NCBI GenBank assembly: GCA_002069815.1
Contig: MWCB01000012.1
Span: forward strand, 1-45,458
Source of the DNA: Tenericutes bacterium ADurb.Bin239
Lineage (GTDB): Bacteria; Bacillota_I; Bacilli_A; RFN20; CAG-826
Direction: 5' to 3'
DNA: 45,458 nt
The notes under the pieces were generated by a model. The model was not told where the DNA came from. It did not search any database and saw only the letters and a program-made list of their open reading frames with translations. Below, one piece after another: positions 24,848 to 42,681 of this stretch (position 1 is the stretch's first letter; each line of letters starts with the position of its first letter). The position numbers were made by a program, and so were the translations under genes.

Positions 24848-24861
24848 GATTAACGTTAATC
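24848..24861. promoter_or_regulatory. Perfect LacI-type operator in the operon leader
   Basis: GATTAACGTTAATC is a perfect 14-base palindrome with the central CG typical of LacI-family operators. It begins 16 bases downstream of the -10 box, just past the expected transcription start, where bound repressor would block the polymerase. A related site occurs at 27337-27350 next to the LacI gene (12 of 14 bases equal). Confidence 0.75.
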
Positions 24862-24877
24862 CTGTTTTCTTATCTTT

Positions 24878-24906
24878 ATTTTATAAAGCGCTTACAAAAT
24901 AGTCAA
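24878..24906 (-). promoter_or_regulatory. Promoter of the CBM lipoprotein-GH43-transporter operon
   Basis: On the minus strand TTGACT (24901-24906) and TAAAAT (24878-24883) are exactly 17 bases apart. The leader from here to ATG 24693 is about 175 bases. A cre site fills most of the spacer. Confidence 0.8.
24883..24896 (-). promoter_or_regulatory. CcpA-type cre site inside the promoter spacer
   Basis: TGTAAGCGCTTTAT agrees with the Bacillota cre consensus TGWAANCGNTNWCA at 12 of 14 positions and has the palindromic core AAGCGCTT. It lies between the -35 and -10 boxes, so CcpA bound with HPr-Ser-P would block polymerase and give catabolite repression. Confidence 0.75.
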
Positions 24907-24937
24907 GGATAAACTTAAAAACAACTAAAATTATTTC

Positions 24938-26080: not shown

Positions 26081-26092
26081 AATCCCCCTCCC

Positions 26093-27313
26093 TTATTGTA
26101 CTACGCGATGATAATATGGTCCAGTTTGCTCAGTGGTTGATGGTTGTAAGCCCTGAACATATGGCCATCCCTTTTCATCAAATAAGATTTTTTCCATGAG
26201 TAAGATGCGGCGATGGGCATTATCAACGTGATAAGCATGGTAGTAGAACCATGGTTCACCATTAACATCATCAATAACCGAATTATGACCAGTGCCCACG
26301 AAGGTGTCATTTTTTTGGACAACGAGTTTACCCGCCGCTTTATTCGTCATTAGTCGATTTTCATGGTCATAATATGGGCCAAACGGAGTGGTAGCGCGCC
26401 CAACCACCACTTTGTAAGTTGAAGATAAGCCATCACAACACGTACCAGTCGATAAAAATAAATAATAATAGCCGTTCCAGTAGCGAATATAGGCGCCTTC
26501 ATAAGTGTCAACTTCCCAACCTGTTGAAGTATCTAATCCCGCTACTCGTACTTTCGTGGGGGCGGCTTGTTCAACACTACCCACCCTAAAACTAAGACCG
26601 TCACGTTTTAATTCAACCATGTAGTTACCCCGCATTGAACCCCACACTAAATAAACACGGTTGGTATTCGGATCCACAAAGGCATTAGCGTCAATGCTAT
26701 TATTTACCCCAATTTCTTGCGAAAGAAATAGTTTACCATGATCAGTCCACGGACCTTGCGGTTTAGGAGCGGTTGCATAGCCGATACCCGGATTTGGATC
26801 ACCCCATGTTGAAAGCGAATAATAAAGAACATATTGTCCGTTAATATATTGCACATCTGGGGCCCACAGTCCTGCCCCCGGCGTTCCCCATTGCGGTAAA
26901 TGACTAAAGACATATGATAACTTAGTCCAAGTCACCCCATCAGTCGAACGTAAATACTGTCCATGCGTGGCGTATAAAAACCACATCCGTTGGATGGGAT
27001 CATATACTCCTGACGGATCAGGAAAATCATTATTGTAAACTGGATTAGTGTACGTGCCGCGCGCTAGTTCAAGTTCCACACTGATTGATGACTCTTCGCT
27101 ACTTGATATTTCGCTACTACTTAGTTCCGGTTCACTTACTGCTTCACTTGTTGGGTCTTCCATACTTTCATCCTCACTTGAATATATTTCACTTGACGGT
27201 GATTCACTAACTAATGACTCTACTTCATTGCTAGTTGGAAAAAGAGTACAACTAGATACGATCATCGTAAATATCAAAAAGAGCAGATAGCGGATCCTTC
27301 TTTTTTTGTTCAT
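26093..27313 (-). CDS. GH43 arabinanase-like lipoprotein (copy 3)
   Basis: 406-residue surface lipoprotein, the longest of the three GH43 copies. Lipobox IVSSC gives Cys22; the Ser/Glu-rich linker is unusually long and acidic (about 23-85). Expected catalytic residues: Asp99 (DFPDPSGV), Asp208 (NSIDANAF) and Glu272 (TYEGAYIR). STGTCCDGLSSTYKVVVGR and GTGHNSVIDD match the arabinanase type. Copies 2 and 3 are closer to each other (shared APDVQYINGQYV, IGVNNSID) than to copy 1, which suggests tandem duplication. It is the first gene after a TTTACA/TATAAT promoter with an operator at the start point, divergent from the LacI gene. Confidence 0.88.
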   Translation of the reverse strand: MNKKRRIRYLLFLIFTMIVSSCTLFPTSNEVESLVSESPSSEIYSSEDESMEDPTSEAVSEPELSSSEISSSEESSISVELELARGTYTNPVYNNDFPDPSGVYDPIQRMWFLYATHGQYLRSTDGVTWTKLSYVFSHLPQWGTPGAGLWAPDVQYINGQYVLYYSLSTWGDPNPGIGYATAPKPQGPWTDHGKLFLSQEIGVNNSIDANAFVDPNTNRVYLVWGSMRGNYMVELKRDGLSFRVGSVEQAAPTKVRVAGLDTSTGWEVDTYEGAYIRYWNGYYYLFLSTGTCCDGLSSTYKVVVGRATTPFGPYYDHENRLMTNKAAGKLVVQKNDTFVGTGHNSVIDDVNGEPWFYYHAYHVDNAHRRILLMEKILFDEKGWPYVQGLQPSTTEQTGPYYHRVVQ

Positions 27314-27352: not shown

Positions 27353-27381
27353 ATTATAAAATGGTTTGGGGGTTTTGTAAA
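27353..27381 (-). promoter_or_regulatory. Promoter of the GH43 copy 3-copy 2 unit
   Basis: On the minus strand TTTACA (27376-27381) and a perfect TATAAT (27353-27358) are exactly 17 bases apart, and the ATG lies 40 bases downstream behind AGGGGG. Confidence 0.82.
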
Positions 27382-27429
27382 CCCCTACCCACAAGCGTTC
27401 AATATTTTATTTATTTTATGCTGGAATTA

Positions 27430-27438
27430 TGCGATAAT
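27430..27438 (+). promoter_or_regulatory. Possible extended -10 of the lacI gene
   Basis: TGCGATAAT fits the extended -10 form TGnnATAAT, 18 bases before ATG 27457, with AGGAA in between. No clear -35 box. Confidence 0.35.
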
Positions 27439-27456
27439 TATTTTATAGGAACGATT

Positions 27457-28479
27457 ATGGAAAAAAATAATAAAGAACGAGTTACTTTAAAAGATATCGC
27501 CGAACGCGCGGGTGTTACTGTTAATAGTGTTTCCCGGGCCTTACGCGGCCATAAAAGTATATCAGAAGTCACCAAAGAAAAAGTGCGCGCAATTGCTAAA
27601 GAATTAGGATATATTCCTGATGCGCAGGCGCGGCTGATGCGTGGTGCTAAACTTCGTGTTATCGCGGTTGTCTATGACAACATTGTTAATCCTTACTATT
27701 CGATTATGAATAACCATTTAAATAATGAGTTAACGAAAGCAAATTACCGACCAATGGTCTTCTTTGAATCAAGTCAAGATGGTACTTTATCACTTGAAGT
27801 TGCTCGCGAAATTATCTCTATGCGAATTGTTGGGGTTATTACTTACTTAGTGCCCACTAAGGAAGTTATTGATTTATTTGAGGATCATAATGTTCCCATC
27901 GTCCTTTTAGGACGTACTGGTGACTCACTTGGAATTGATAGTGTGGCGACCAATGATTATCGCGGCGGTAAACTTGCTGGTTACAAACTTTTCGATCTTG
28001 GTGGTAAAAACTTTAGTTACATTGGTGTTACGCGTAGTCTTAATATTAATAAAGAACGTCTTAATGGCTTTTTAAAAGCCCTCCAAAATAATGATGTTGC
28101 GGTTCCTAAAAGTAATATCATTCTTAATGATAAACGCCAATCCACGCGCTCACTTATGGAAGAGTTAGATGTTAAAACGAAAAAAATTGATTCCATCTTC
28201 TGCTTTAATGATCAAATCGCCTATGAAGTAATTGGTTATCTTGGCGATAACGGCATTAAAGTTCCCGACGATATTAATGTCATTGGCTTTGACAATTTAC
28301 AAAGTGATATTATTTATCCGATTAAACTAACAACGATTGATGGCGATAAACCGCGGGCCGCCCACTTAGCGCTTAACATCCTTTTTTCAAAAATAAAAAA
28401 TGAAAGTGATACCGAGATGACGGGGAAGATTGTTGATGTCACGCTCGTTGAAGGCAAAACGACTAAAATGCGTAAATAA
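27457..28479 (+). CDS. LacI-family repressor of the arabinan-type locus
   Basis: 340-residue transcription regulator. The N-terminal helix-turn-helix (about 9-28, VTLKDIAERAGVTVNSVSRAL) is followed by the hinge helix YIPDAQARLMRG (about 52-63) and a periplasmic-binding-type sensor domain with VIGFDNL near the C-terminus. It should bind palindromes with a central CG and release them on binding a sugar from arabinan breakdown. Start ATG 27457 follows AGGAA; an upstream in-frame ATG at 27361 would add 32 residues ahead of the helix-turn-helix that do not look like family sequence. It is divergent from the GH43 genes, and a matching operator lies in the shared intergenic region. Confidence 0.92.
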   Translation: MEKNNKERVTLKDIAERAGVTVNSVSRALRGHKSISEVTKEKVRAIAKELGYIPDAQARLMRGAKLRVIAVVYDNIVNPYYSIMNNHLNNELTKANYRPMVFFESSQDGTLSLEVAREIISMRIVGVITYLVPTKEVIDLFEDHNVPIVLLGRTGDSLGIDSVATNDYRGGKLAGYKLFDLGGKNFSYIGVTRSLNINKERLNGFLKALQNNDVAVPKSNIILNDKRQSTRSLMEELDVKTKKIDSIFCFNDQIAYEVIGYLGDNGIKVPDDINVIGFDNLQSDIIYPIKLTTIDGDKPRAAHLALNILFSKIKNESDTEMTGKIVDVTLVEGKTTKMRK

Positions 28480-28512
28480 TGGCATTTTGCCGCTAAAATT
28501 GTTATATTTCAT

Positions 28513-28550
28513 AAAAAAAGATAACGCGGAAAGGCGTTATCTTTAATTTT
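28513..28550. terminator. Bidirectional intrinsic terminator
   Basis: AAAGATAACGC and GCGTTATCTTT form a perfect 11-pair stem with loop GGAAAG. Seven A's precede the stem, giving the minus strand a strong T-tract, and AATTTT follows on the plus strand. It serves lacI and the convergent small membrane protein gene. Confidence 0.9.
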
Positions 28551-28567
28551 ACGTTACAAGTTTTTTC

Positions 28568-29044
28568 TTATTTTAAAAGATCAGCGGCAACACCAGCCAC
28601 GCCACCAAGTCCCGCAAGGATTAAAGTAGCAACGGCACCACCAGTAAGTTTATAGGCTTTAAGTTGTTCAGCAACATTATCAACGTTAGGCATAAGCGCG
28701 AGATTCTTCACGAGGAAAATTAAAACGACGCTAACTAAGCCAAGGGCTAAGAGCACATAACCAAGTGCCTTGTTCTTTTCTAAGCTTTTACCAACCACAC
28801 GGCCAGCTGCTAACGCTACTCCGCCTAAGAGAAAAAGCGGCGTTAAGAGATTTAAGAAACTGAATTTGAAAATTACAACTTCTCCAAGAAGCGGAACGAC
28901 TTCCTTTTTCCCAAATGTTAGATTAACGAAACTATAAGAATTACTTGGTTCAGTTCGCGCGATAGCTGGAAGCGCAAACCATAGGATAGCGGCCACTAAA
29001 AATAGGCCTGCTGACACTACATTCAATAATTTTTTCTTGTCCAT
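28568..29044 (-). CDS. Small membrane protein of unknown function, four membrane segments
   Basis: 158-residue protein starting MDKKKLLNVVSAGLFLVAA. Four hydrophobic segments lie at about 8-27, 55-80, 95-115 and 132-155, with a loop after the first that is probably outside. I do not recognise a named family. Start ATG 29044 follows AAAGGA by eight bases; an in-frame ATG at 29074 lacks a site. It sits between two sugar loci, with its own terminator, and shows no link to either. Confidence 0.7.
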   Translation of the reverse strand: MDKKKLLNVVSAGLFLVAAILWFALPAIARTEPSNSYSFVNLTFGKKEVVPLLGEVVIFKFSFLNLLTPLFLLGGVALAAGRVVGKSLEKNKALGYVLLALGLVSVVLIFLVKNLALMPNVDNVAEQLKAYKLTGGAVATLILAGLGGVAGVAADLLK

Positions 29045-29194
29045 AATTTTTGTCCTTTCTAAATTTAAATACATTTAAACATAATTACATGTGTTAAGCA
29101 AACATTAACCCTTGAAAAAAAGGAGAAAGTAAACAATCGTTCAATCGGTAATTATATTCATAAATCCTAATAATTGGCGTATAATGCTTAAAAG

Positions 29195-31228
29195 TTACAC
29201 CCCGATATCAGCGGCCGTAATGTTAATTGTATTGGCACCATAATTACTAATGAACAAATGCCTGTTTTGTTCAGTCGTCATACTTGTCAAAGTTATAACT
29301 TTTTCACCATCATTAACAAAGATTTCGGCGGAGTATTTATCAAGCAATATTTCGAGTTTTACTTTGTTTGCTTTCGTCGTAATTGGTACATTTATTACGT
29401 TATGAATCCCTTCTTGCGGAAAGTGTCCGTGATTTAAACTACTGCGATCAACTTTTAGATTACCATCGCTTAATGTTAATTTAATACCCTTGCCTTCTTC
29501 ATCACCAAATAACGTAAATTCCGTTATGTCACTATTTAAGGTTGTTTCCATTTTTAAATGCTTAACGCGACCATCTAGTCCTGCATCTTTAAAGTTAGTA
29601 ACTACTTCTTCAATAGTCACCATACTTGGCGTTCCTAGATATGAATAGAGTTCACGAGCGGGCTTTTGCATCAATCTATTATTAACGTAACTTAATTCAC
29701 GCGGAAAAGTCATTGCTCCAGCATATCCAAACTCACGGGTTACTGGTGCTCTATTCCATCCCGCCATCCACGCTACCATCATTGTCCGCCCATCTGGCAT
29801 TTTCATTGTCTGTGGGGCATAAAAATCAAACCCGTCATCAATCTCAACAATCCGACGATAATCAACGTTTTCTAAAACGCCAGTTTGCCAATTCATATTC
29901 CCTGTAATATAGACATTACCATCACTATTTCGATGTCCAGTCGCCGTTTGGGGACTAACAATAATCATATCTTGACCATCTAAATTAAAAAGATCAGGAC
30001 ATTCAAGCATAATCCCTAAGCACGCAGCAAACTCAGGACCATTACTAAAAGTGCGGCCAGCGTATGACCATTTGTATAAATCTCTACTTTTGTATAAAAG
30101 TAATGACGAATAATCATTATTTGTATGACGTGAAGAAATAATGGCGTAGTAATCGTTATCTTTCTTAAATACTTTTGGGTCACGAAAATCAGCAATCGTA
30201 GCGTTAGGGGGTAAATCATTTTCACTTAATACTGGGTTACCTTCGTATTTTGTAAAGTTAACTCCATCACTTGATGTCGCAATCGCCTGCACTTGGCCTG
30301 AAGTTGATGCCCCAGTATACATTAAGTAATATGTTCCTTCTTCATCACTTATCGCTGAGCCACTGAAAGCTCCCACTGAATCATAAGGTTGGTCAGGCGC
30401 TAACGCTACTTTTTCATAATTCCACTTTACAAAATCATCCGTTGTAGCGTGACCCCAATGCATTGGACCCCACATTATTCCGTAAGGATTATATTGATAA
30501 AAGAGATGAACTTTATCGTTATAATAAGAAAACCCGTTGGGATCATTAATCCACCCAATTTGGCCATGTAAATGATACGCAAATCTTTTATCTCTATCTA
30601 CTTTCCAAGCATTAAGCTTAATATAAATATCCGCTGCTTCCACCATATCTTCAGCTCGCGCAATACCTAACCGAATATTAGTGTCATCGCTAAGTTCTAT
30701 AAGTTCATCTTCACTAATACTAACCCGTAAATCATCAAAGTTAATATGACTAATTGTGCTTTCATCCACTATCTCAACGTATACTTTATCCCCAAGATAT
30801 GACGATAAATCAACATTAAAACGCACATATGTTTCGGTTTGAAATGGTTCTAAATAATATTCATTCGTAACTCTTTTTATTTCTTTATTTCCTTTGGCAA
30901 GTTTAATCGCAACATAGGTCGTATCGGCATCTTTACCCCCACTTAACAAGAATGAAATATAGCCTGATGCACTGATAGTAAAAACTTTCGATTGTAGTTT
31001 TCCTCTATTAGCGGTATTTCCTAAAACATGATACGTCTTGTCGGCTAAATAATACCTTTCCCCATCTGCATAAGTTAGCGCATCACTAACCGTGAAAGCG
31101 TCACCTTCAACTTTCCACGTTGTAAAATTACCAGTTTCAAAACTATAGTTTGTTACTTGTGGTTTATGACCACAACTTGTTAAACCGATAACTAACGATA
31201 AAAATAGTATTATTTTAAAACGATACAC
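29195..31228 (-). CDS. GH32 fructan hydrolase lipoprotein
   Basis: 677-residue surface enzyme. Lipobox GLTSC gives Cys19. A beta-sandwich module (about 24-175, opening NYSFETGNFTTWKVEGDAF) often found before GH32 domains comes first and may bind fructan. The GH32 five-bladed propeller (about 215-530) has nucleophile Asp229 in GWINDPNG, stabiliser Asp350 in FRDPKVF and acid/base Glu409 in LECPDLF. A C-terminal beta-sandwich follows. It should release fructose or fructo-oligosaccharides from levan or inulin outside the cell. The start is GTG 31228, six bases after GAGG. It is the last gene of the fructan-type operon; I see no clear terminator after it. Confidence 0.91.
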   Translation of the reverse strand: MYRFKIILFLSLVIGLTSCGHKPQVTNYSFETGNFTTWKVEGDAFTVSDALTYADGERYYLADKTYHVLGNTANRGKLQSKVFTISASGYISFLLSGGKDADTTYVAIKLAKGNKEIKRVTNEYYLEPFQTETYVRFNVDLSSYLGDKVYVEIVDESTISHINFDDLRVSISEDELIELSDDTNIRLGIARAEDMVEAADIYIKLNAWKVDRDKRFAYHLHGQIGWINDPNGFSYYNDKVHLFYQYNPYGIMWGPMHWGHATTDDFVKWNYEKVALAPDQPYDSVGAFSGSAISDEEGTYYLMYTGASTSGQVQAIATSSDGVNFTKYEGNPVLSENDLPPNATIADFRDPKVFKKDNDYYAIISSRHTNNDYSSLLLYKSRDLYKWSYAGRTFSNGPEFAACLGIMLECPDLFNLDGQDMIIVSPQTATGHRNSDGNVYITGNMNWQTGVLENVDYRRIVEIDDGFDFYAPQTMKMPDGRTMMVAWMAGWNRAPVTREFGYAGAMTFPRELSYVNNRLMQKPARELYSYLGTPSMVTIEEVVTNFKDAGLDGRVKHLKMETTLNSDITEFTLFGDEEGKGIKLTLSDGNLKVDRSSLNHGHFPQEGIHNVINVPITTKANKVKLEILLDKYSAEIFVNDGEKVITLTSMTTEQNRHLFISNYGANTINITAADIGV

Positions 31229-31258
31229 TATCTACCTCATTTAAATAAAAGTTAGTAT

Positions 31259-32758
31259 TTATTCATAAAAATGAATGTTTTTAATGGTCACATCAGCGCC
31301 TTCCCCCACAAATCCAAAAGCGTTATTCGTTTTGGCATACATTCTGACACTTAAAACAAATTGATCAGCGATGTATAGCGATAAACATTCACCTTCGCTA
31401 AGCACTGTAACGGTAAGCGTTTGCCTAGTCATAACATGAAGGGGGACATAGGCTTGGGGCATAGCGTTTTTGATGTCAGCAAGCGCTACATTATAGAAAC
31501 TTAAACGATCATGATTAAAATCAAAAAGAATATTTAAGGGCCCACTCTCATTATTGCCACCGAAAGTCATGGCAAAAGTACCATTTAGACTACGAGCGGT
31601 TAACGAAAATGTCATTCTTGTCGGTCTTTCTAACAGTTCATCAAATAAAAGACTATCACTTTGTCCCGAAAAGGAAAATTCGCCATCTTCTTTTATTATT
31701 GCTTCATTATTTACATGTTTTTCGTAATGAACTTCCGTATTTAAGGCTTCTACTACTTCCCGCATTGGACACGGACGAAGTTCGCCGTTTGATAATTGTA
31801 TAAGTTCATGAACAGCAAGGTTACCACCCCAATCAAAATCACCACCATCATAGTCAAATTGTTTAACCGCTTGCCAGCCAGCATAAATTAAGCGATCATC
31901 TGCTTTTTCTAAGCGGGCTGCATAAACACCGACTCCATCAAAATAATCGTCGACGGGTTTTTGCCAAACTCCGCTACTTAAGTTATTTGTATAACGATAA
32001 TGGGTAACTCTAAACGCCCCTTGTTCGCTATAACTTAAATACCAATAATTACCAAATTTAATTAAAGTGGGACATTCTAAGTTATAACTACCAGCATCAT
32101 TAGTGAAGAAAACACGATCATAATTCCAAGTAATTAAATCGGTTGATGTATAAAGTTTTAAGACACCAACATTATTATGACGAGTAGTAATAAGCATCCA
32201 GTAATTATTAGTTTCTTCCATATATAAAACGTAAGGATCACGGAAGTCATTATGACCACCGTAAAATCCGTGTTCAGGATGTTTCGTCCAATTTATTAAA
32301 TCACTACTTGTGGCGTGTTGAATCTTTTCAAAGTAAGGTGTATTTCCTGTACCGTTGTAACCCGTATAATAAGCATGATAAAGACCGTTTTTATCTTTTA
32401 TGACTGACCCAGTACCAAGCGCTAAATCTTGACTCCCGGCATCTTTTTCATAAGGGATAACAACCCCCACATCTTCATAAGTTACGTAATCCTTTGTTCG
32501 TAAAAGCGACCATGGATGAAAGCCAACCATACTTTGTTGATCTTCGTTTAATAAATAAAAATAATTCATATATTCGCCATCAAAATAAGGCATGACATCA
32601 CCAATATCACCATCATTACTGCGGGGGAATAATTGTAATCCGTTTTGTTCCACTGTTCCTTTATCCTTTAATCCGTTTGTGTCTTCACTAGGCGTAACAA
32701 CTGTATGACAACCCGCTAATAAAAGGGGTAATACAACTACAAGTAATTTCTTAAACAT
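31259..32758 (-). CDS. Divergent GH32-type lipoprotein
   Basis: 499-residue surface lipoprotein. Lipobox LLAGC gives Cys17. The propeller domain aligns with GH32 at two of three catalytic motifs: DFRDPYV (Asp174) and LECPTL (Glu228). The usual WMNDPNG nucleophile motif is replaced by IGDVMPYFDG, where Asp54 is the only good nucleophile candidate. A C-terminal beta-sandwich (about 350-499) has FVLSVRM and GFVGEGADVTI as in GH32 C-domains. Substrate or reaction may differ from ordinary fructosidases, for example a fructotransferase or a fructan-binding protein. AAAGGAGG lies five bases before ATG 32758; it overlaps the upstream GH32 gene by eight bases. Confidence 0.75.
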   Translation of the reverse strand: MFKKLLVVVLPLLLAGCHTVVTPSEDTNGLKDKGTVEQNGLQLFPRSNDGDIGDVMPYFDGEYMNYFYLLNEDQQSMVGFHPWSLLRTKDYVTYEDVGVVIPYEKDAGSQDLALGTGSVIKDKNGLYHAYYTGYNGTGNTPYFEKIQHATSSDLINWTKHPEHGFYGGHNDFRDPYVLYMEETNNYWMLITTRHNNVGVLKLYTSTDLITWNYDRVFFTNDAGSYNLECPTLIKFGNYWYLSYSEQGAFRVTHYRYTNNLSSGVWQKPVDDYFDGVGVYAARLEKADDRLIYAGWQAVKQFDYDGGDFDWGGNLAVHELIQLSNGELRPCPMREVVEALNTEVHYEKHVNNEAIIKEDGEFSFSGQSDSLLFDELLERPTRMTFSLTARSLNGTFAMTFGGNNESGPLNILFDFNHDRLSFYNVALADIKNAMPQAYVPLHVMTRQTLTVTVLSEGECLSLYIADQFVLSVRMYAKTNNAFGFVGEGADVTIKNIHFYE

Positions 32759-34166
32759 CTTTGCCTCCTTTAAACTTGCGAACATAGGCGTTTGTTAGTT
32801 CTTGTTCATTTTTAAGCGTAACTTTATATTCATCTTCATAAAAATAAATCAAATTTGTCATTGTTTCATAGCCATCATTTAAAAATATTTCAATTGATGA
32901 AGAATCAAGAAAGACTTCAACCTTTAATTTACCACGCGGAACATTACTATAAATTTTCGTTTGTGGGAAATTAATATGATTAGTGCTATCAAAGAAAAAG
33001 GAACCACCTTCTTGACCAAAAACAATATAATCATTATGTTTAACGCTGATTATTACTTCAAAATCATTACCGCTTGTAGCAAAAGATAAATGGGACCATT
33101 TACTAATCTTCATATTGTTAACAAGGGGCATTTCTTTTTCAAAGTAAGCGTAAACACTTTTAATTGGTGTTTGCCATAAGCGCTTATCAGCAAAAAACAC
33201 CATGCGCGGTAAGACAAAAGCACCAGTCCACCCATCACCATTTAACGCCGTGAAATATGTTTTATTCCACATGTTCATCCACGCATGCATTACATAATTC
33301 TCGTCTTTATCCGTAAATACATGGGGCGCGTAAAAATCATGTCCGGCATCAATTTCATGAACAATATTTAACTGATATTGTTTGTTAATAAAATCTATTT
33401 TACCAATGAAAGCCGCACTTGAATTACTCTTTTTAAATTCGTTACCAATGCGTGGCATATTGATACCTGAAACAATTAACACATCTTTATCTTTAAAGCG
33501 TAAGAAACTAGGACATTCGCCCATTACCCCAAAGCGCCGATCAGGACCGATAGTAAAGTGATAATTAAAGGTTTTTAAGTCAAGCGACTTATATACCACA
33601 ATTTGGCCTATATCATCATGGGTTTTCGAACCCACTAACACGTAATAAACGCCATCAAGATTAACGGGCATTGGATCACGAAAATCAGTGATTACGGCAT
33701 CAAGCGGTAAATCCTTACTCGTTAGAAAAGGACGATTATCTTTTTTAAAGGTAAATCCATTTTTACTTCGCGCTATGTTTTGACATTCACGCTTATAATC
33801 ACCTTCGTAATGTTTCGTATACATTAAGATTAATTCGTTGTTCTTAACAATCGCACCCCCCGAAAAACAGCCGTGTTCATCACTTAAATCAGGGGCCAGA
33901 GCAACATTTTCATCGGTATAAGTAATTAAATCCTTACTCGTAAGGTGACCCCAATGCATTGGACCCCAAAGCGGAGCGTACGGATAAAACTGATAAAACA
34001 AATGGTATTTACCTTTAAAATAAATGGCACCATTCGGATCGTTGGCCCAACCAAGCGGAGCAGCAGCGTGATAGCGCGGTTTAAACCGTGGATTAACAAA
34101 TTTTTTATTATCCGCAATATATTTATCAGCGCGTTCTCGCGTAAAAAGGACTTCCTCTTTACTCAT
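32751..34166 (-). CDS. Cytosolic GH32 beta-fructosidase
   Basis: 471-residue GH32 enzyme without a signal peptide. The nucleophile Asp43 lies in GWANDPNG (Ala replaces the more common Met), the stabiliser Asp164 in DFRDPMPV and the acid/base Glu217 in GECPSFL. The C-terminal beta-sandwich has DSSSIEIFLNDGYETMT. It should split imported fructo-oligosaccharides or sucrose into fructose and glucose in the cytoplasm; transport here is by ABC, so unphosphorylated sugars are the likely substrate. The ATG follows the stop of the CBM lipoprotein gene after three bases, so translation is coupled. No fructokinase gene is in the window. Confidence 0.9.
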   Translation of the reverse strand: MSKEEVLFTRERADKYIADNKKFVNPRFKPRYHAAAPLGWANDPNGAIYFKGKYHLFYQFYPYAPLWGPMHWGHLTSKDLITYTDENVALAPDLSDEHGCFSGGAIVKNNELILMYTKHYEGDYKRECQNIARSKNGFTFKKDNRPFLTSKDLPLDAVITDFRDPMPVNLDGVYYVLVGSKTHDDIGQIVVYKSLDLKTFNYHFTIGPDRRFGVMGECPSFLRFKDKDVLIVSGINMPRIGNEFKKSNSSAAFIGKIDFINKQYQLNIVHEIDAGHDFYAPHVFTDKDENYVMHAWMNMWNKTYFTALNGDGWTGAFVLPRMVFFADKRLWQTPIKSVYAYFEKEMPLVNNMKISKWSHLSFATSGNDFEVIISVKHNDYIVFGQEGGSFFFDSTNHINFPQTKIYSNVPRGKLKVEVFLDSSSIEIFLNDGYETMTNLIYFYEDEYKVTLKNEQELTNAYVRKFKGGKDV

Positions 34167-34169
34167 TTA

Positions 34170-35909
34170 TTACACTAACTCCCAGATTTTAACTTCCGAT
34201 AGTTCAATCGTCATTGGGGCTATGTTTTCACTAAAGCCCCCAAATTGGAAGAAAATATCAACCTTTGTTTCGGAAAATAATTTTTGGGGAATTTCAAAGG
34301 TATATGTAACTGCTTCATTGGTAAATTCTTGGGTAACGTTAATAAGCGGATTCCATTCTCCTTGCCGATTAACAATAAATTGAACTTTACCAGGCGTACT
34401 TCCTTTTAAGCTATAAGTAAATTTATACGAAGCATTCGCAGGTAAAGTAATTCCTTCAAATGCTATTTTATTATGCCAATCAACATTACCAAAAGCGGTG
34501 ATGTTATAAATTAAGCTTGTAGCAGTCGTTGTAACACTACCATCGCCATCACCATCATGACTTAAAATCCATGGAACTTTACTATAAATAGCGGTAAAGT
34601 CAGCGCTATCAACCACCGTTGACATTGATAAAAACGTGAATCTTGTTAATTTAATTACGTTCGTGGCCGCACTACCACGGCCTAACGCTAGTTTGATAAA
34701 GATATTATCAATAGCAATACTGGCTTTAAAAGTAAATTCAATCGTCGATGTTCCTGCAGTTAGGGTCCCATCTTTAAAACCTGCCCGCACTTGCCAATCA
34801 AGGCGACTGTCTTCGATACATAATTCATAAAATTGATTTTTCTCAGTCTCGATATCAATGATAACTTTGTACATTTCATTGCGTAAAATTCGTTGTCCTG
34901 TATTTCTAAATAAGTTAAGGGTCCACGGATTATTATTGGAAGCATAACTCATATCGAGTGATAAAGCCCCATCCGCGACAGTTAGAGTAGCGCTTGCGCC
35001 ATCAAACGTTGTTTTACCCCAAGATTCAGCACTTAAAAAATTTTCATCAAGTAAAACATTACCTTCACCTGATGTGTCTTCCATTAAAAGATTAATCAAA
35101 TATAAGACAACGTATGGGAGTGTTTCATTTGCACTTCCTGATAAAAGAATGGCTAATTTAGCGTCACTGATTGCTTCTTCTACAGTGAAGGTGGCTAAAT
35201 GGATGCCTTGTGCACTATCAAAATTAAGGGGCACACTTTTAGTAAGTGTTTCCCCGTTATATAGTTCAAGAGTAAAATTAAATTCGGTTACATTCGTGTG
35301 AAATTTTAAAATATAATTAGTGCTAGCTTCGAAAGCTAACCCTTCTTTTACTAATTTAATGTCACTAGGTTCAGATGAATGCGTTTCAATTTCGACAATC
35401 AAAGCATTTTGACTATCATCAATTGTGGCAACCCCAGCCCCAGTAGTAACTAATTCCCAACCATTTTGATCAAAAGATTTAGTTTGTGATAATTCAAATT
35501 CACGGAATAAACGTTCCGTTGGTTTTGCCGCCAAAACCGTCAATGTTGTATAAGCTTCAGTTGTTAAATTTAAAGAGTTAGTAACGGAATAAGTAATAAA
35601 ATAATCACCCCGTTCTTCAGGCGTTAATACCCCATCGTTATTAACGATTGCGGGGATTGAGGATATTTCGATAAACGCGGTCAAATCACCATCAGTGTCA
35701 TCCGTGGCTGTCACACCCGCTAAGGCATTCCACGACTCTCCGAGATTAATCGATACTTCATCGAGTACGCCGTTAATAGTGGGAGCACTACCTTCAGTCG
35801 TAACTGATGTATCGCTTGTTTTTGAAACACTACCACTAGGGGTATTTTTACACCCCGTCACCACTAGTGATAACGCCAATAATGAAAATAATATCCGAGT
35901 CTTTTTCAT
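34170..35909 (-). CDS. Multi-CBM surface lipoprotein of the fructan-type locus
   Basis: 579-residue lipoprotein without a catalytic domain. Lipobox LVVTGC gives Cys20. A Ser/Thr linker leads to an Ig-like DUF5011-type domain (about 42-128, marked by TATDDTDGDL and GDYFITYSVTNS). Three CBM4/9-like jelly rolls follow (about 133-283, 285-430, 435-579), the second with WTLNLFRN and the third with WHNKIAFEG at the usual sugar-side position. The same order (lipid anchor, Ig-like, CBMs) is seen in the lipoprotein at 22669-24693, although the sequences have diverged. Start ATG 35909 is set by GGAGGG seven bases upstream. It should retain fructan near the surface hydrolases. Confidence 0.82.
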   Translation of the reverse strand: MKKTRILFSLLALSLVVTGCKNTPSGSVSKTSDTSVTTEGSAPTINGVLDEVSINLGESWNALAGVTATDDTDGDLTAFIEISSIPAIVNNDGVLTPEERGDYFITYSVTNSLNLTTEAYTTLTVLAAKPTERLFREFELSQTKSFDQNGWELVTTGAGVATIDDSQNALIVEIETHSSEPSDIKLVKEGLAFEASTNYILKFHTNVTEFNFTLELYNGETLTKSVPLNFDSAQGIHLATFTVEEAISDAKLAILLSGSANETLPYVVLYLINLLMEDTSGEGNVLLDENFLSAESWGKTTFDGASATLTVADGALSLDMSYASNNNPWTLNLFRNTGQRILRNEMYKVIIDIETEKNQFYELCIEDSRLDWQVRAGFKDGTLTAGTSTIEFTFKASIAIDNIFIKLALGRGSAATNVIKLTRFTFLSMSTVVDSADFTAIYSKVPWILSHDGDGDGSVTTTATSLIYNITAFGNVDWHNKIAFEGITLPANASYKFTYSLKGSTPGKVQFIVNRQGEWNPLINVTQEFTNEAVTYTFEIPQKLFSETKVDIFFQFGGFSENIAPMTIELSEVKIWELV

Positions 35910-35935
35910 CCTCAATCCCTCCATCTTTTAATTAA

Positions 35936-37390
35936 TTAAATTGCTCTTTTTTTAAAGAAAATATAGAACCCAGTACTTACTAAACCAAGTCCTAATAAAA
36001 CGTATAATGCAGTGTTTCCGCCGGCAAAATGGCCCTCTTTTGTATCAGGACGCCCTGATAAAGGAATCGCCGGATTTGCGCCGCGATTTGCGTTATAGTT
36101 AGTGACAAGCCGCAACCATTTAGCGGCTACCGTAACGGCGCCGTCAACTTTTGGTCCACTACCTTCACCAAGGTTATAATCGTAGTCTTTTACGTAAGTT
36201 GTACTTAAGTTTTCGGGGTCAAGTAATCTTAAATAGTAATCTTCATAAAGGGCAGGGGCGGCCATATAACCGTCATCAAGCGTTCCCGGTACACACGTAT
36301 CAACACTAGCAAGGCGAGTCGCAAACTCACTAACATAACGACCAACTCGCATTTCATGGACAAGAGTATAAACATCGTAAGCAAAAAGCTTAATCACACT
36401 AAAGGTTAAAGTAGTGGGACTCGTACCTTCTTTCCCTAATTGGAAGTGTAAGGTTGGGGCCGCAATCGCAATATCAGGATAAAATTTTTGCCCAGAGTAA
36501 GTTGTTCCTGCCGAAATTGTTCCTTGCTGGAACAATGCTCTTTTTTCCCATGTAAAATCAGGGTCCTCTATTCCTAATTCATAATGCTTATTATTTGTTG
36601 ACTGTACTCCAAATTCAAATGAGTAAAAGACATCTCTTGAAAGGGCGGTGCCTAAATCACCCCGTTTTAAGTGTAGATCCCACGGGTCACTTGCAGTACC
36701 AAAGTCTTGAATTTCAAGCACTAATTTGTTAGAAGCGTGGGAAAGCGTGGCTTGAACCCCTTTAGTCGTATTTGCTTCAATGAAAAAGCCATCAGTACTT
36801 GCGGAAAAATCGCTTTGATACACTGTTGTTCCTTGTTCCATTTTAGTGAGTGTAATTCTTTCGACTTCTAAATTAAATGGACCACTCTTATTCTCATTCC
36901 AACTACCACCGAACTGGAAGAGTAATTCCACTTTAACGGCGCCATCTTTTAAGGCATTTGTTGTTTCAAAGGCAAGACTATAAGTGGCTTTAGTTGTACC
37001 TAATTCAACATTCCATCTTTCGCCCCGTCTTAACGGATCGTGACTGTCCCTAAGTTGTTCGACGATAAAATTAGCCTTAACCATTCATTCTTTAGCTTTT
37101 ACCACTACATCCCATTGGTAGAAAGTATTTGGCTCTAAAACATGTTGATAAAGGCCAAGTTTAGCGTGCCAATCAGCCGTTCCCGCATTGGTAACAGCGA
37201 TATTGACGTAGGTACCTTCATCTGTAACACTACCACTTGCTCCATTATTGAAATCGTAGTCCCAACTATTTAAATATGGGGCCGAGAGTGCTTTAGTGCC
37301 TTCCACCCCTTTAGGAGCAATAAGGGAGAATGCGAATAAAGCAGGTAAGATGGCAAATAATATGCCTCTTTTTTTATTCTTGGGTTGCAT
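35936..37390 (-). pseudogene. Membrane-anchored CBM surface protein interrupted by an in-frame TGA
   Basis: Two reading frames in one phase form a protein of about 485 residues. Part 1 (37390 to 37088) has a signal peptide and the first half of a CBM4/9-like domain, ending VVVKAKE. TGA stands at 37085-37087. The frame resumes with the very next codon (ATG 37084), giving MVKANFIVEQL, which completes the same domain. A second CBM domain (about residues 180-335), a domain with a single Cys and an AAKWLRLVTNYN motif, and a C-terminal membrane helix with basic tail FFKKRAI follow. No LPXTG is seen. One G-to-A change of TGG would explain the stop (KAKE-Trp-MVKA). AAGGAGG precedes ATG 37390. The second part alone would lack a signal peptide. 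Confidence 0.8.
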
Positions 37391-37967
37391 AAGTTCCTCC
37401 TTTCCTTAGTTTCTCAAGAACATAATTTGTAATTAAATATACCAAGTATCCGTAAAAATAAAGTAATGGGATTATTATCAACGGATAATATAATACTACC
37501 AAAGTTAAGCCAAATGTAACAGCAAGTAAAAGTAATGAGAACACATTACCCCGCAAGATTAGAAGTGTGATATTTTGCATTAATTCCTTATTTGTAACAT
37601 GCATGCGGAAGATTACAATCGGGGCAAACATCGTAAATAAAGCAACGACAACTAAAATAATCCAACTCATAAAGAGCGTAATATTACTTAAAGTTGAACT
37701 AGTAAAGGTAAAATAATTTACATTAAGCACGAGCAACACTAAAAGAATAGTGGAAATAAGACTATAAAGTAAGATTTGCTTCTTATTTTCACTAATTAAA
37801 CGGAACGCTCCTTTAAGACTTCTGCTATCAAGCGGGATACTGCAATAAGCAATCATAACCGCTAGAGCGAAAGTAAAAGGCACGATGAGCGCTAGCGAAA
37901 TAACAAGCAGTACACTCAGCACTAAATAGTCAAAAATTTGTTCTAAAAATAGTGTTAGTCGTTTCAT
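37374..37967 (-). CDS. DUF624/YesL-like membrane protein
   Basis: 197-residue protein with about five membrane segments, opening MKRLTLFLEQIFDYLVLSVLL. DUF624 (YesL) proteins are regularly encoded beside LplABC-type sugar transporters in Bacillota, and this gene lies just after such a binding protein. An assembly or accessory role for the transporter has been proposed for the family, but the function is unknown. The start lies five bases after the upstream stop codon and has no strong ribosome binding site, so translational coupling is likely. It overlaps the next gene by 17 bases. Confidence 0.7.
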   Translation of the reverse strand: MKRLTLFLEQIFDYLVLSVLLVISLALIVPFTFALAVMIAYCSIPLDSRSLKGAFRLISENKKQILLYSLISTILLVLLVLNVNYFTFTSSTLSNITLFMSWIILVVVALFTMFAPIVIFRMHVTNKELMQNITLLILRGNVFSLLLLAVTFGLTLVVLYYPLIIIPLLYFYGYLVYLITNYVLEKLRKGGTYATQE

Positions 37968-37972
37968 GTCCG

Positions 37973-39616
37973 TTACGCGGTAAACCTTTCATAAGCTGTT
38001 TGATAAATGTTAATCATTTGTGATAAACCAATATTCTCTAACGTTGTTTTAAAGGTATTAAATTGTGCATCAGTCGGACCACCATTTAATAACCATAACG
38101 TTTGTTGTTCGTAAATATAATCAATAACGTCACTTTGAATCGTCGCAAGAGCATTAATTTCCGTCATCGTAAAAGTAATATTTGGAATTGGGGTTGCCCC
38201 TTCAATAACATAGGGCACGGCATGTTTAGCAAGACGCGCGAGACGCAAGACCGCTCGTGGTTCCATATTGACAGTATTTTCCCATTCTTCTTCCGATAAA
38301 TAAAGTAAACCAAGCGGAGCATTCTTTAACCGTAATTCGTCTGCTGTTAATCCCGCTGGAATTTCTTTTTGGACAAGTTTTCCATTTGCGTCAAGTTCTT
38401 CTTCGTAAACAATCCCAATAGGGCCATAGTTAATTTGCGCCGACCACATTGGATCATAGAATCGGTCAAAGTGCGTTAACATTATTTCAGGATTAGGAGC
38501 TTTAGCAAAGACAACAAATTCACCACGGGTAATTTCATGATTATTAGCGACACCAATTTGTTGTTTTCCGTTTGGACCAATAAGTGGATTTAATACAATG
38601 TAATCTTGCGGGTTAGTTACGACTGTTTCACTTTCCCACCAATAGAAACTACCTAAACGTTGATTGCTGGCTTTCCCTTTCGCAAGGAAGGCATCTTGGG
38701 TATGGGAGAAAACTTCTTTATCAATTAATCCCTCATACACCCACCCACTTAAATAATTAGTGGCATCTTTCCATGCATCACTCGTCGCGGTAAAGGTGAC
38801 TTGACCATTAATTAGAGTCATATGGTCAACGTTTTCTGGAATACCAAAAGCAGCGTATAAGTCGCTTTGATTTCCTTGCCAATTTTGATAGACAAAGGAA
38901 AGTGGTAATTCATCATCACGACCATTACCGTTCATATCATTCGCTTTAAAATGGGTTAAGATCGTGCGATATTGTTCAAGTGTTAAGTTTAGACCATCTT
39001 TTAAATCGGCCACGGTTAAGAAATCAATCTTGCCGCTATTAATTAAGTCCGTAACCCACACTTTATTTAAAAATAATAAGTTGGGATAAGGTAGTAAGTT
39101 CATTTCTTCAACTTTAGGCAAAGAATAAATATGACCATCAGGCGCGGTTAATACTTTGCGCACATCGGGTCTTTTATCTAAAATACGCGTAAGATTAGGC
39201 ATCTTATCAAAGTAGGGGTCAAGCGGAATAATAACTTTACGGGATGAATATTGAATAATGTCTTTATCAGTAAAACCAGCGTGATAAATAGCGTCAGGAT
39301 GCTCATTTTTATTCGCCATGATTAAATTTTTACGGGTTGCATAACTTGTTTCACTCATATTGCGCCAATTGATTTTTACGTATGTTTCATCGTAAATATC
39401 ATTTAACACTTTCATATCCGCATAATTATCAGCTAGTGCATTTTTAGGAGCAATAACATCAAAACTAACCGCTCCTTTCTCGCGAATAACGGGCGCGTCA
39501 GTATCTTCCCACTGATAACCAACTTCATCTATGTCAATACTTATTTTTGAAGTTGTTGTTTGACAGCCAGTTAAACAAAGTAATGCTGTTAATCCTACTA
39601 ATAATTTGTTTTTCAT
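37973..39616 (-). CDS. LplA-like oligosaccharide-binding lipoprotein
   Basis: 547-residue extracellular solute-binding lipoprotein of the large LplA type. Lipobox LCLTGC gives Cys18. Family-like segments are VKINWRNMSETSYATRKNLI, the DPYFDKMPNLTRIL region and DMNGNGRDDELPLSF, which looks like a calcium-binding loop (D-x-N-x-N-x-x-D). It should bind fructo-oligosaccharides for the two permeases upstream. AGGAGG lies about eight bases before ATG 39616. The usual partner order permease-permease-binding protein-DUF624 is kept. Confidence 0.9.
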   Translation of the reverse strand: MKNKLLVGLTALLCLTGCQTTTSKISIDIDEVGYQWEDTDAPVIREKGAVSFDVIAPKNALADNYADMKVLNDIYDETYVKINWRNMSETSYATRKNLIMANKNEHPDAIYHAGFTDKDIIQYSSRKVIIPLDPYFDKMPNLTRILDKRPDVRKVLTAPDGHIYSLPKVEEMNLLPYPNLLFLNKVWVTDLINSGKIDFLTVADLKDGLNLTLEQYRTILTHFKANDMNGNGRDDELPLSFVYQNWQGNQSDLYAAFGIPENVDHMTLINGQVTFTATSDAWKDATNYLSGWVYEGLIDKEVFSHTQDAFLAKGKASNQRLGSFYWWESETVVTNPQDYIVLNPLIGPNGKQQIGVANNHEITRGEFVVFAKAPNPEIMLTHFDRFYDPMWSAQINYGPIGIVYEEELDANGKLVQKEIPAGLTADELRLKNAPLGLLYLSEEEWENTVNMEPRAVLRLARLAKHAVPYVIEGATPIPNITFTMTEINALATIQSDVIDYIYEQQTLWLLNGGPTDAQFNTFKTTLENIGLSQMINIYQTAYERFTA

Positions 39617-39628
39617 CGTTTGTTCCTC

Positions 39629-40546
39629 CTATTTAAATGAACCGACCAAGAATCCCGCTTTAAAGAATTTTTGGACTAATGGGTAAAAGACTAAGATGGG
39701 AATACTACTTACAATAATCGAACTATATTTAATTTGGTTCGCGATTTTCGCCTGTTCAATAATCGTTTCGGCACTTCCGCCGGATTGCGAAGTAACTTCC
39801 GCGGTAATTAAAATATCACGTAAAACGAGTTGAAGCGGAAAATATTTTTCATCTGATAAGAAAATCAAGGCATCAAAATAACTATTCCAGTGCCCCACTG
39901 CATAGAAAAGAACCATCACCGCAATGATTGGTTTAGCAAGGGGTAAAACAATGTGCCAGAAACTTCGAAATTCACCGCAGCCATCAATTTGAGCTGCTTC
40001 AAGGAGTTCAGAAGGAATATTTTCTGTAAAGTAACTTTTAACAACAAACACATTCCACACACTAACTCCGCCAAGGATAATCATACTTAAAGGATTATCC
40101 ACTAAATTTAGTTTAGCGACTAATAAATAATAAGGGATAAGGCCGCCACCGAAAAACATAGTAATAACCATAAACCACGTAATAACCCGTCTAAATGGTA
40201 AATTTTTCCGCGATAATGCCCATCCCGCTGGTATTGTTAGTAATAAGTTAAAAGCAGTGCCAAACACGGTATAAATAATTGTATTTAAGTATCCTGACCA
40301 AATAAGCGGTTCATCAAATAATCGTTTATAGCCATCAAAGGTAATTTTAAGCGGATAAAAATAAACTTCGCCATTAAAGATAGCGTCTGGGTTACTAATT
40401 GAAGCAATTACGATAAAGTAAAGCGGATAAATGACAATAGCCGCCAGTAAGATTAAAATAAACCACGTAAAAATATAATAGATACGATCGCCAAGGGTAT
40501 CTTTGCGCCAATGTCTTCGTTTTCGCATTTTAACCGCTTCTACCAT
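39629..40546 (-). CDS. CUT1 permease, LplC/YtcP-like
   Basis: 305-residue membrane permease with six membrane segments and the EAA loop EAAQIDGCGEFRSFWHIVLP at about 190-210. Partner of the LplB-like permease. GGGGA lies seven bases before ATG 40546, inside the end of the upstream gene, which it overlaps by seven bases; the internal ATG at 40528 has a poorer site. Ends in TAG. Confidence 0.92.
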   Translation of the reverse strand: MVEAVKMRKRRHWRKDTLGDRIYYIFTWFILILLAAIVIYPLYFIVIASISNPDAIFNGEVYFYPLKITFDGYKRLFDEPLIWSGYLNTIIYTVFGTAFNLLLTIPAGWALSRKNLPFRRVITWFMVITMFFGGGLIPYYLLVAKLNLVDNPLSMIILGGVSVWNVFVVKSYFTENIPSELLEAAQIDGCGEFRSFWHIVLPLAKPIIAVMVLFYAVGHWNSYFDALIFLSDEKYFPLQLVLRDILITAEVTSQSGGSAETIIEQAKIANQIKYSSIIVSSIPILVFYPLVQKFFKAGFLVGSFK

Positions 40547-41499
40547 ATACTATTCCCCGTTAATTTTCGTGTGGAAAGATTAGCGATAACTAAAAGGACA
40601 ACATTAATAACTGAATTAAATAAACCAATCGCCGTCGCGTAACCATATTGTCCACCACCAATACCGATTTTATAAACAAAAGTAGAAATGATTTCCGAGA
40701 CAGAAATATTCGCACCCGTTTGCATTAATAATACTTTTTCATGTCCCACCGACATCAAGTTTCCAATCGATAAAATAAGCATGACGGCAACGGTTGGCAA
40801 AATGGCAGGTAAATCAATCGACCAAATACGCCGGACCCGACTAGCGCCATCAACAATCGCCGCTTCATGGAGATGCGGATCAACCCCAGCAAGAGCCGCT
40901 AAATAAATGATTGAACTCCATCCAAAATCTTGCCAATTGCCACTAAAAATAAAAAGCGGTCGAAACATGCTAGCTTTTAAAAAATAGCTTGTCCCAGACC
41001 CACCTAGCGCTCGTACAATGTTATTTACAAGTCCATATTCACCAAAAAATAAATAAAGCATCCCCGCCATAACCACAACCGAAATAAAATGCGGCGCGTA
41101 GAATATTCGTTGAAATACATTGGAAGCTTTTTTACTTTTAAGGGAGTTAAGCAGTAAAGCCACTATAATTGGCAACGGAAAGCCAACAATGAATCCTAAA
41201 ATACTGAGCATAAAAGTATTGACGATTAATTGTTTAAATCTAAATTCATTAAAGAAACGGGTAAAGTTAGCAAACCCCACCCAATTAGCGTTCAAACTTA
41301 ACATATCATCGCCAGGAGCAAAGTCTTGAAAAGCAATAACTACTCCATACATCGGCAAATAAGCAAAAATAAAGATGTAAACAATCGTTGGAATAATAAA
41401 AATAAGTAACTTCCAATTTTTACGGAAATTAGATTGTTTTTTCCTCGGTTTTAATTGTTCTTTAGAAGTGTTCTCTTCTAAAAGATGAGCACTGTTCAT
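40540..41499 (-). CDS. CUT1 permease, LplB/YteP-like
   Basis: 319-residue permease, first gene of the fructan-type operon. A hydrophilic N-terminus (about 30 residues) precedes six membrane segments; the EAA loop is HEAAIVDGASRVRRIWSIDLP near 210-230, with the LplB-like run QDFGWSSIIYLAALAGVDP before it. ATG 41499 is set by AAGGGA about seven bases upstream; the longer in-frame start at 41523 overlaps the -10 box (41522-41527) and cannot be used from that promoter. The ATPase partner is not encoded here. Ends in TAG. Confidence 0.92.
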   Translation of the reverse strand: MNSAHLLEENTSKEQLKPRKKQSNFRKNWKLLIFIIPTIVYIFIFAYLPMYGVVIAFQDFAPGDDMLSLNANWVGFANFTRFFNEFRFKQLIVNTFMLSILGFIVGFPLPIIVALLLNSLKSKKASNVFQRIFYAPHFISVVVMAGMLYLFFGEYGLVNNIVRALGGSGTSYFLKASMFRPLFIFSGNWQDFGWSSIIYLAALAGVDPHLHEAAIVDGASRVRRIWSIDLPAILPTVAVMLILSIGNLMSVGHEKVLLMQTGANISVSEIISTFVYKIGIGGGQYGYATAIGLFNSVINVVLLVIANLSTRKLTGNSIW

Positions 41500-41521
41500 C
41501 GTTTTTTCCCTTGTTATTATC

Positions 41522-41527
41522 ATTATA
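41522..41527 (-). promoter_or_regulatory. -10 box of the fructan-type operon
   Basis: The minus strand reads a perfect TATAAT. The -35 region (TTATCG, 17 bases away) is weak. The start codon at 41499 lies 22 bases downstream, so the leader is very short but still holds the ribosome binding site. Confidence 0.6.
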
Positions 41528-41651: not shown

Positions 41652-42671
41652 ATGAAAAAAGTTGTTACCATTCAAGATATCGCTAATGAATTAGGACTAT
41701 CGCGAAACACCGTTGGGAAAGTTTTAAACGGTCATAAAGTTCCTGAAAAAACACGTAATTTAGTGCTACGAAAAGCAGTGGAAATGGGCTATAAAAATAT
41801 GGGCATTGTCGCTCAAAACCCTACTTTTCTCCAAAACCAAAGAATCTTATTATTTACTACTCACCCGCTCTTGCATAGTGACTTTTTTGCCGCATTAATT
41901 CGTGGAATTGAAAGCGTAGTAAGAACGTATAAATTTGAACTTATTCAATATACTTTTAGTGATGCTACCACTAACCGTGAACTAGCCGATTATCTTAAAA
42001 GTTTACAAATTAACGGCATCATTTGTATTGAATTATTTGATCGGGGACGTATCAATCATTTATTAAGTTTAAATATACCCACAGTTTTTATCGATTTTAT
42101 TAAAAATCCCGATAACATCAAAGGCAATTATGATGTAATCATGATGGAAAGTATTAATAGTGTTGCCGCTATTTGTAATAAATTAATTAGAGAGGCAAAC
42201 AAACAAAAATTTGCGTTCGTTGGTGACTTTGAGCATTGTCTTGGGTTTTATGAACGATTTCGCGGAATGCGCGAGGCGCTCTACACCGCTAAACTTCCTT
42301 ACGACCACACGCTCTCAATTTGTGAAGTTGACTCTTTTCCCTATGGTAATCCGGCTGAATTAACACGGTTACTCCGCGATAAAGAAAAAGCCGAAGTTTA
42401 TGTTTGCGCAAATGATGGCATCGCTATTTCGTTACTTCATTCGTTAAAGCGACTTAAGCTTCGCGTTCCCCACGACATAAGTGTCATCGGCTTTGATAAT
42501 ATTGTTGATGCGGGATTAGTAGCTCCAAGTCTTACAACCTTAAGTGTTGATAAAGAATATCTTGGCGTTACCGCAATAAAACTATTAATAGAACGGATTA
42601 ATAATCCACACGAAATTACAAAGACGGTCTATATTAATTCAGAAATTATTTATCGTGATTCGACGATTTAA
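41652..42671 (+). CDS. LacI-type regulator of the fructan-type locus
   Basis: 339-residue regulator with N-terminal helix-turn-helix (about 5-24, VTIQDIANELGLSRNTVGKVL) and a C-terminal sugar-sensing domain containing VIGFDNI near residue 280. The hinge region after GYKNMG lacks the usual P-N-x-x-A-R-x-L helix, so its DNA-binding mode may be unusual. It is divergent from the fructan transporter operon and should control it. A purine-rich AAGAAGG lies 11 bases before ATG 41652. It ends ten bases from the convergent lipoprotein gene, without a recognisable strong terminator. Confidence 0.88.
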   Translation: MKKVVTIQDIANELGLSRNTVGKVLNGHKVPEKTRNLVLRKAVEMGYKNMGIVAQNPTFLQNQRILLFTTHPLLHSDFFAALIRGIESVVRTYKFELIQYTFSDATTNRELADYLKSLQINGIICIELFDRGRINHLLSLNIPTVFIDFIKNPDNIKGNYDVIMMESINSVAAICNKLIREANKQKFAFVGDFEHCLGFYERFRGMREALYTAKLPYDHTLSICEVDSFPYGNPAELTRLLRDKEKAEVYVCANDGIAISLLHSLKRLKLRVPHDISVIGFDNIVDAGLVAPSLTTLSVDKEYLGVTAIKLLIERINNPHEITKTVYINSEIIYRDSTI

Positions 42672-42681
42672 TTATTTTAAA

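Follow-up and report, generated by a model that had tools for sequence, protein, structure and literature searches.

The subject of this analysis is a lipoprotein gene on the minus strand of a stretch of 45,458 nucleotides from Tenericutes bacterium ADurb.Bin239 (contig MWCB01000012.1), the whole of which is called the window here. Its product, the target, is probably a cell-surface enzyme of glycoside hydrolase family GH32 which belongs to the endo-levanase branch represented by BT1760 of Bacteroides thetaiotaomicron, carries the GDxMP segment of that branch and would supply an ATP-binding cassette (ABC) importer and exo-acting GH32 enzymes encoded beside it. This reading is based on the motif alignment, the identity of the pocket residues, the fold, the family and the operon context.

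The nucleophile segment and the pocket

The W-x-NDPNG signature is not present in the target, and GDVMP is found in its place. An earlier note on this DNA had listed Asp174 in an RDP motif, Glu228 in an EC motif and the segment IGDVMPYFDG with Asp54 instead of WxNDPNG, all of which are present when the protein is read from the start at position 32758. The note took the nucleophile motif to be replaced. However, this motif was known before from BT1760, a GH32 enzyme with a crystal structure, in which the segment reads GFVGDPMPFYD and Asp41 aligns with Asp54 of the target, so that the nucleophile is kept. For BT1760, Asp41 is reported as the nucleophile, Asp169 as the stabiliser and Glu221 as the acid/base, with Thr104, Cys222, Gln239 and Arg244 as pocket residues (PMC6560043). 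Residues D41, T104, D169, E221, C222, Q239 and R244 of BT1760 correspond to D54, T116, D174, E228, C229, Q246 and R250 of the target, and each of these seven was kept in 36 of 36 rows of the family alignment. This alignment consisted of the target, 33 rows left from the 34 of 82 plus-strand extracellular rows retained by a 72% identity filter (L071 was left out), and the rows of loci L034 and L003; a smaller alignment lacked its two plasmid rows. G53, D54, M56, P57, R173, D174, P175 and E228 are likewise identical in all 36 rows, target included, and such conservation means that the segment is not there by chance.

Alignment with Asp41 and superposition of a structural model on BT1760 would place the side chain of Asp54 at the nucleophile position, a point which the earlier note had left to such a model. 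Two further BT1760 entries carry changes in the same segment: 7znr is titled 'Inactive D62N mutant' (precursor numbering) and its chain reads GNPMP, and the chain in 8aa2, an 'inactive levan utilisation machinery' entry, reads GAPMP. As BT1760 is placed in GH32 without W-x-NDPNG, this signature does not define GH32 for the branch, and absence of NDPNG is no sign that the nucleophile has gone, which corrects a probable misreading. Around the pocket the target has no tryptophan within loop 1 (Trp83 follows just after it) and a short loop 3 with Gln246 and Arg250. The loop 3 residue beside Gln246 varies in the family, being tryptophan in 19, glycine in 16 and serine in one of the 36 rows. An altered nucleophile or a dead site was considered and rejected in view of the BT1760 alignment and the 36/36 conservation.

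Gene, domains and fold

In the list of open reading frames (ORFs) that of the target, on the minus strand, runs from 31259 to 32785 and has 508 amino acids. A start at 32758, giving 499 amino acids, is implied by the coordinates of the earlier reader, and AGGAGG lies five bases before its ATG. From this start the N-terminus reads MFKKLLVVVLPLLLAGC, a lipoprotein-type signal, and a loose lipobox pattern was found in 31 of the 36 family rows. The assignment as a GH32-type lipoprotein made in the earlier note is borne out by this signal together with a match to PF00251 (GH32N) at 1.3e-25 over residues 57-324, with 91.1 bits against a cut-off of 22.1.

The closest solved protein is BT1760, found by phmmer at 5.9e-37 over target residues 37-495; no other GH32 scores better than 2.8e-11. 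With the family profile BT1760 was matched in the PDB at 9.3e-93 and the next protein at 4.2e-22. An AlphaFold2 model built from 34 window and locus sequences had a mean pLDDT (the confidence score of the prediction) of 88.4 for the target. All top five Foldseek entries were BT1760, and VIA-align superposed the model on BT1760 (7znr) through residue 499 with Z 43.6, a root mean square deviation of 2.3 and 450 aligned residues, the BT1760 entries ranging from 41.9 to 43.6. The best entry that is not BT1760 was a Thermotoga beta-fructosidase (Z 33.6), and levan fructotransferase (4fff-4ffi, Z 32.2-32.6, with 4ffh at 32.6), an endo-inulinase (32.2) and the levanase of Bacillus licheniformis (9h8i, 29.3) were also aligned. 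The target is thus modelled with the propeller-plus-C-domain fold of GH32. The coordinates of its parts and of the neighbouring genes are collected in Table 1.

Table 1. Target gene, its parts and the surrounding genes in the window
Feature	Position	Strand	Basis or remark
BT1760-type GH32 lipoprotein, 499 amino acids, predicted surface endo-levanase	31259..32758	-	ORF, PF00251, best PDB match BT1760
AGGAGG, Shine-Dalgarno-like	32764..32769	-	read from sequence; supports ATG at 32758
Lipobox LAGC, residues 14-17, Cys17	32708..32719	-	sequence; Cys17 nearly invariant in family
Nucleophile segment IGDVMPYFDG	32576..32605 (Asp54 at 32597-32599)	-	aligned with BT1760 Asp41
RDP motif (FRDP), Asp174, predicted transition-state stabiliser	32234..32242	-	aligned with BT1760 Asp169
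Glu228, predicted acid/base, in ECP motif (LECP)	32075..32077	-	aligned with BT1760 Glu221
Beta-propeller catalytic domain, Pfam-matched span	31787..32590	-	Pfam and model
C-terminal beta-rich domain (beta-sandwich by BT1760 match), start approximate	31262..31735	-	model, superposition to residue 499
Canonical NDPNG GH32 lipoprotein, 677 amino acids	29195..31228	-	PF00251 6.5e-89; W-x-NDPNG; downstream of target
Canonical NDPNG GH32, 471 amino acids, no signal peptide seen, predicted cytoplasmic exo-beta-fructosidase	32751..34166	-	PF00251 1.5e-78; W-x-NDPNG
Lipoprotein with Ig-like domain and CBM_4_9-like stretch, predicted surface glycan-binding protein	34170..35924	-	Pfam (Ig-like 6.4e-7)
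Solute-binding lipoprotein, FusA (fructo-oligosaccharide) type	37973..39616	-	PDB search
ABC permease	39629..40546	-	PF00528
ABC permease	40540..41523	-	PF00528
LacI-type regulator, divergent	41652..42671	+	

Family, spread and tree

Relatives of the target are common in Bacillota. They were collected by a scan of one genome per species with two peptide patterns, one of which was the GDxMP segment itself, and the best 80 of at least 544 stretches encoding relatives were taken. Among the matches listed, the titles name Bacillota (Butyrivibrio, Pseudobutyrivibrio, Selenomonas, Clostridium, Trichococcus and Erysipelotrichaceae) and Acholeplasma-like bacteria, and by this gene an Acholeplasmataceae record (L034) is among the nearest relatives. 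GD.MP occurs in all 79 loci from L034 to L112, partly by construction, as GDxMP was one of the two selecting patterns. When 95 relatives were searched, 23 genomes had any match, and in the loci read the extracellular GDxMP type was found only in G000, G061 and G019. The genome of the window also carries intracellular relatives of ADxIP type on contigs C11 and C4. A viral scan gave 43 pattern matches, none of which encoded a relative of the target, leaving a viral origin without support.

In a tree of 58 rows the extracellular family (36 rows, support 100/99), the intracellular group (11 rows, 100/96) and the NDPNG exo-enzymes (10 rows, 100/100) formed separate groups. The exo rows were the first eight found and the two window genes; L025, the second L052 gene and the repeated loci L028 and L030 were left out. 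A companion row set took the first ten exo rows found and the two window genes. BT1760 stood beside the extracellular family (95/86).

The intracellular sister group is set apart by its pocket. Position 246 is glutamine in all 36 extracellular rows and in BT1760, and phenylalanine or tyrosine in all 12 intracellular rows; at position 250 arginine is found in all 36 and in BT1760, and in three of the 12; His81 and Gly115 are found in all 36 and in BT1760, and in none of the 12. Separating columns were defined by at least 33 of 36 rows in the extracellular family and at least nine of 12 in the intracellular group, and counted where BT1760 sides with one of the two. BT1760 agrees with the extracellular family at nine such columns and with the intracellular group at six. 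Among the nine, G40, M43, H70, G103 and Q239 of BT1760 lie in or beside the pocket, and at two (200 and 281) the target departs from its own family. This sequence pattern favours the levanase reading, short of proof.

Further proteins with related segments were seen. Loci L004 (2947-4170) and L007 (2834-3922, both in reverse-complement coordinates) encode proteins of about 360-410 amino acids with GDVMP which score only 31-37 bits from the target; they form another group with this motif, so that the endo-levanase branch is not defined by GDxMP alone. At locus L113 (contig C4 of G000, 27500-44500) three lipoproteins (1834-3411, 3424-4911 and 10990-13026) have GDxHP at the place of the nucleophile. 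Two of them match GH32N (1.8e-17 and 3.5e-6) and one has no Pfam match at E <= 0.01; by Pfam score they are further from GH32 than the target. Their cluster also holds a FGGY sugar kinase and an ABC system of oligopeptide type, and on the same contig an intracellular GH32 relative of ADxIP type is seemingly split into two ORFs (14078-14833 and 15049-15540 of L113).

Genomic context

Upstream of the target the same strand carries the genes of the two permeases and of the solute-binding lipoprotein, one for a small membrane protein, a second binding-like gene and those of the Ig/CBM lipoprotein and the signal-less exo-GH32. The position between two canonical GH32 genes given in the earlier note was confirmed, and the distinct job suggested there for the target is very likely, predicted here to be endo- rather than exo-cleavage. 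The solute-binding lipoprotein matches the PDB entries 5g5y-5g62 at 4.7e-70 to 3.3e-68 (5g5z 4.7e-70 and 5g5y 4.8e-70 over residues 69-546), the next different protein following at 3.1e-24; 5g5y is FusA, the fructo-oligosaccharide (FOS) binder of Streptococcus pneumoniae (PMC5287374). The CBM_4_9-like stretch of the Ig/CBM lipoprotein falls just below the Pfam cut-off, and relatives of this lipoprotein are found in the same place in L034, L036 and L039. These three loci repeat the order binding protein, cytoplasmic GH32, target and exo-GH32, followed by an ORF which, judging by its sequence, we take to be a sugar kinase. Of 83 relative loci, 43 have another GH32 place, which lies no more than 300 bp away in 28 of them; 25 have the complete set of three ABC parts, and 24 combine the ABC parts with another GH32. 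These counts are lower bounds, because the flanks differ in length and some contigs end early.

The N-terminal stretch of about 190 amino acids of the downstream GH32 lipoprotein (30619-31228) had no Pfam match at E <= 1 and no convincing PDB match; for an inulin-binding domain of CBM38 type, which had been suspected there, the PDB search had a best E of 0.52. The stretch is possibly a fructan-binding module. In frame ahead of the binding-like gene (35936-37084, minus strand) is a stretch that begins at 37390 and bears a signal peptide; a single in-frame TGA at 37085-37087, with an ATG directly after it, splits 35936-37390 in two. TGA ends two of the 30 window ORFs checked (table 11), and the one at 37085-37087 may be a true gene end. 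A neighbouring locus at 21518-27313 holds three GH43 lipoproteins and a CBM_4_9/Ig-like lipoprotein and has its own LacI gene (27361-28479).

Proposed mechanism

Asp54 would attack C2 of the fructosyl unit in subsite -1, with Glu228 acting as acid/base and Asp174 as stabiliser, and hydrolysis would proceed with retention. From loop 1 without tryptophan and the short loop 3 with Gln246 and Arg250 we infer a wide pocket holding several fructose units, and such binding would let the enzyme cut inside the beta-2,6-fructan levan, as proposed here. The surface exo-GH32 (29195-31228) would then trim the pieces, the FusA-like lipoprotein would bind them and the two permeases would carry them into the cell, where the cytoplasmic exo-GH32 (32751-34166) would complete their breakdown.

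Alternative explanations

Several observations weigh against a BT1760-like endo-levanase. Target and BT1760 are only 26% identical, and F219 and K124 of BT1760 are replaced by N226 and N135 in the family. PF16346, the C-terminal domain of BT1760-like proteins, scores 13.8 bits against a cut-off of 31.4 on the target (E 0.056), which is outside the 33 of 36 family rows that match it at E <= 0.01. In the tree BT1760 is not inside the extracellular family and has a long branch, and its placement with the intracellular group was not rejected (p-AU 0.10). Endo- and exo-levanases are reported not to be separable by sequence identity (PMC5245892). The family also includes an enzyme from a plasmid locus of Escherichia coli for short-chain FOS (L032), so that specificity may vary within it, and three intracellular GH32s lacking NDPNG, with glycine for Asn53, were inactive on sucrose, kestose, nystose, arabinan, inulin and levan (PMC7833758). 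The same fold and machinery might serve another specificity, inulin-type or mixed-linkage (graminan) fructan, or exo-action on fructo-oligosaccharides, which we regard as possible though unlikely. The E. coli family member comes from such a plasmid locus, and the fos locus is described as being active on short-chain FOS; the structure of FusA was determined with nystose, which is a FOS of inulin type (PMC5287374), and the variable residue beside Gln246 points the same way; against this, all pocket residues named in the BT1760 structure paper are kept in the target. About as doubtful is the broader view that the large extracellular GDxMP clade found in Bacillota and Acholeplasma-like bacteria is a mere cousin of BT1760 and cuts a different substrate, for instance a mixed-linkage graminan or another furanoside polymer; if true, many genes now called GH32 would share one specificity outside levan.

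That the target is no fructanase and acts on a related furanoside or another glycan appears improbable. Such a substrate has been suggested for an intracellular cluster without NDPNG in butyrate producers, cluster 4, inactive on all fructans tried, and GH32 membership of such proteins was doubted (PMC7833758). L126, which is likely an example of this cluster and of the intracellular type by its motif, is about equally similar to the target (31%) and to BT1760 (28%); it came from a set of 21 genomes chosen around the genus to which an Agathobacter ruminis record belongs, five of which had any match. But cluster 4 is intracellular, L126 and the intracellular rows are without Gln246 and mostly without Arg250, both of which BT1760 and the extracellular family keep, and the operon of the target has two canonical GH32s and a FusA-type binding protein. 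The fructotransferase or difructose anhydride chemistry to which the motif had seemed to point in the earlier note, here in the form of a levan fructotransferase producing difructose anhydride IV, is very improbable. It shares family and fold with the target, but its structures lie about 10 Z units below BT1760, 4fff-4ffi are absent from the hits of the family profile at E <= 0.001, which comprise 43 distinct sequences, and GDxMP is found in a hydrolase, the motif comparison covering the hydrolytic endo-levanase BT1760 (GFVGDPMP) and the endo-inulinase INU2 (YWMNEPNG; PMC5245892). It was set aside as finding support neither in the profile list nor in the fold ranking. A catalytically dead surface glycan-binding lipoprotein, for which the altered motif alone would speak, is almost inconceivable with three catalytic carboxylates and four named pocket residues identical in 36 of 36 rows.

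Comparison with known systems

An endo-levanase of the BT1760 branch in this operon suggests that a bacterium with a small genome (1.29 Mb assembly) has an equivalent of the levan system of Bacteroides that works with an ABC importer, with a predicted surface endo-enzyme, surface exo-enzyme, binding lipoproteins, importer and cytoplasmic exo-enzyme. In a literature search which did not cover most subscription journals, there was no mention of the target gene, and no sequenced protein of the Bacillota GDxMP clade was found to have been assayed; for Butyrivibrio fibrisolvens 3071 an endo-levanase activity is cited without a sequence (PMC5245892).

With BT1760 (6r3r, 6r3u, 7znr) the target shares full-length homology, the fold, the GDxMP segment, the catalytic triad, the Thr/Cys/Gln/Arg set of the pocket and exo-GH32s encoded nearby. 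It differs in the low identity, the two exchanged residues and the long branch, and its locus has an ABC importer where Bacteroides has a SusCD system. D4IW69 of B. fibrisolvens 16/4, a putative levanase 31.6% identical to BT1760 and, according to PMC5245892, not confirmed as endo-levanase, belongs like the target to the extracellular GDxMP family if L044, a gene from this strain with 32.0% identity to BT1760 and 40% to the target, is taken as its gene. The second GH32 of the E. coli fos locus, taken from gene order as FosE2, is a further exported member with 34-36% identity which is also encoded with a canonical NDPNG GH32; unlike the target it has no lipobox pattern in its row, and its locus is the one for short-chain FOS. 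The cluster 4 enzymes share Gly-Asp for Asn-Asp and the kept catalytic triad, but are intracellular and inactive on the fructans tried (PMC7833758); they probably belong to the intracellular sister group without Gln246 and mostly without Arg250. More distant are two levan-active enzymes. LevB1 of B. licheniformis (9h8i) is a GH32 with endo-levanase activity from another branch (profile 4.8e-8, Z 29.3), and the levan fructotransferase of Arthrobacter ureafaciens (4ffg) has the GH32 fold but differs in its transferase chemistry, with Z 32.2 and no match to the family profile at E <= 0.001.
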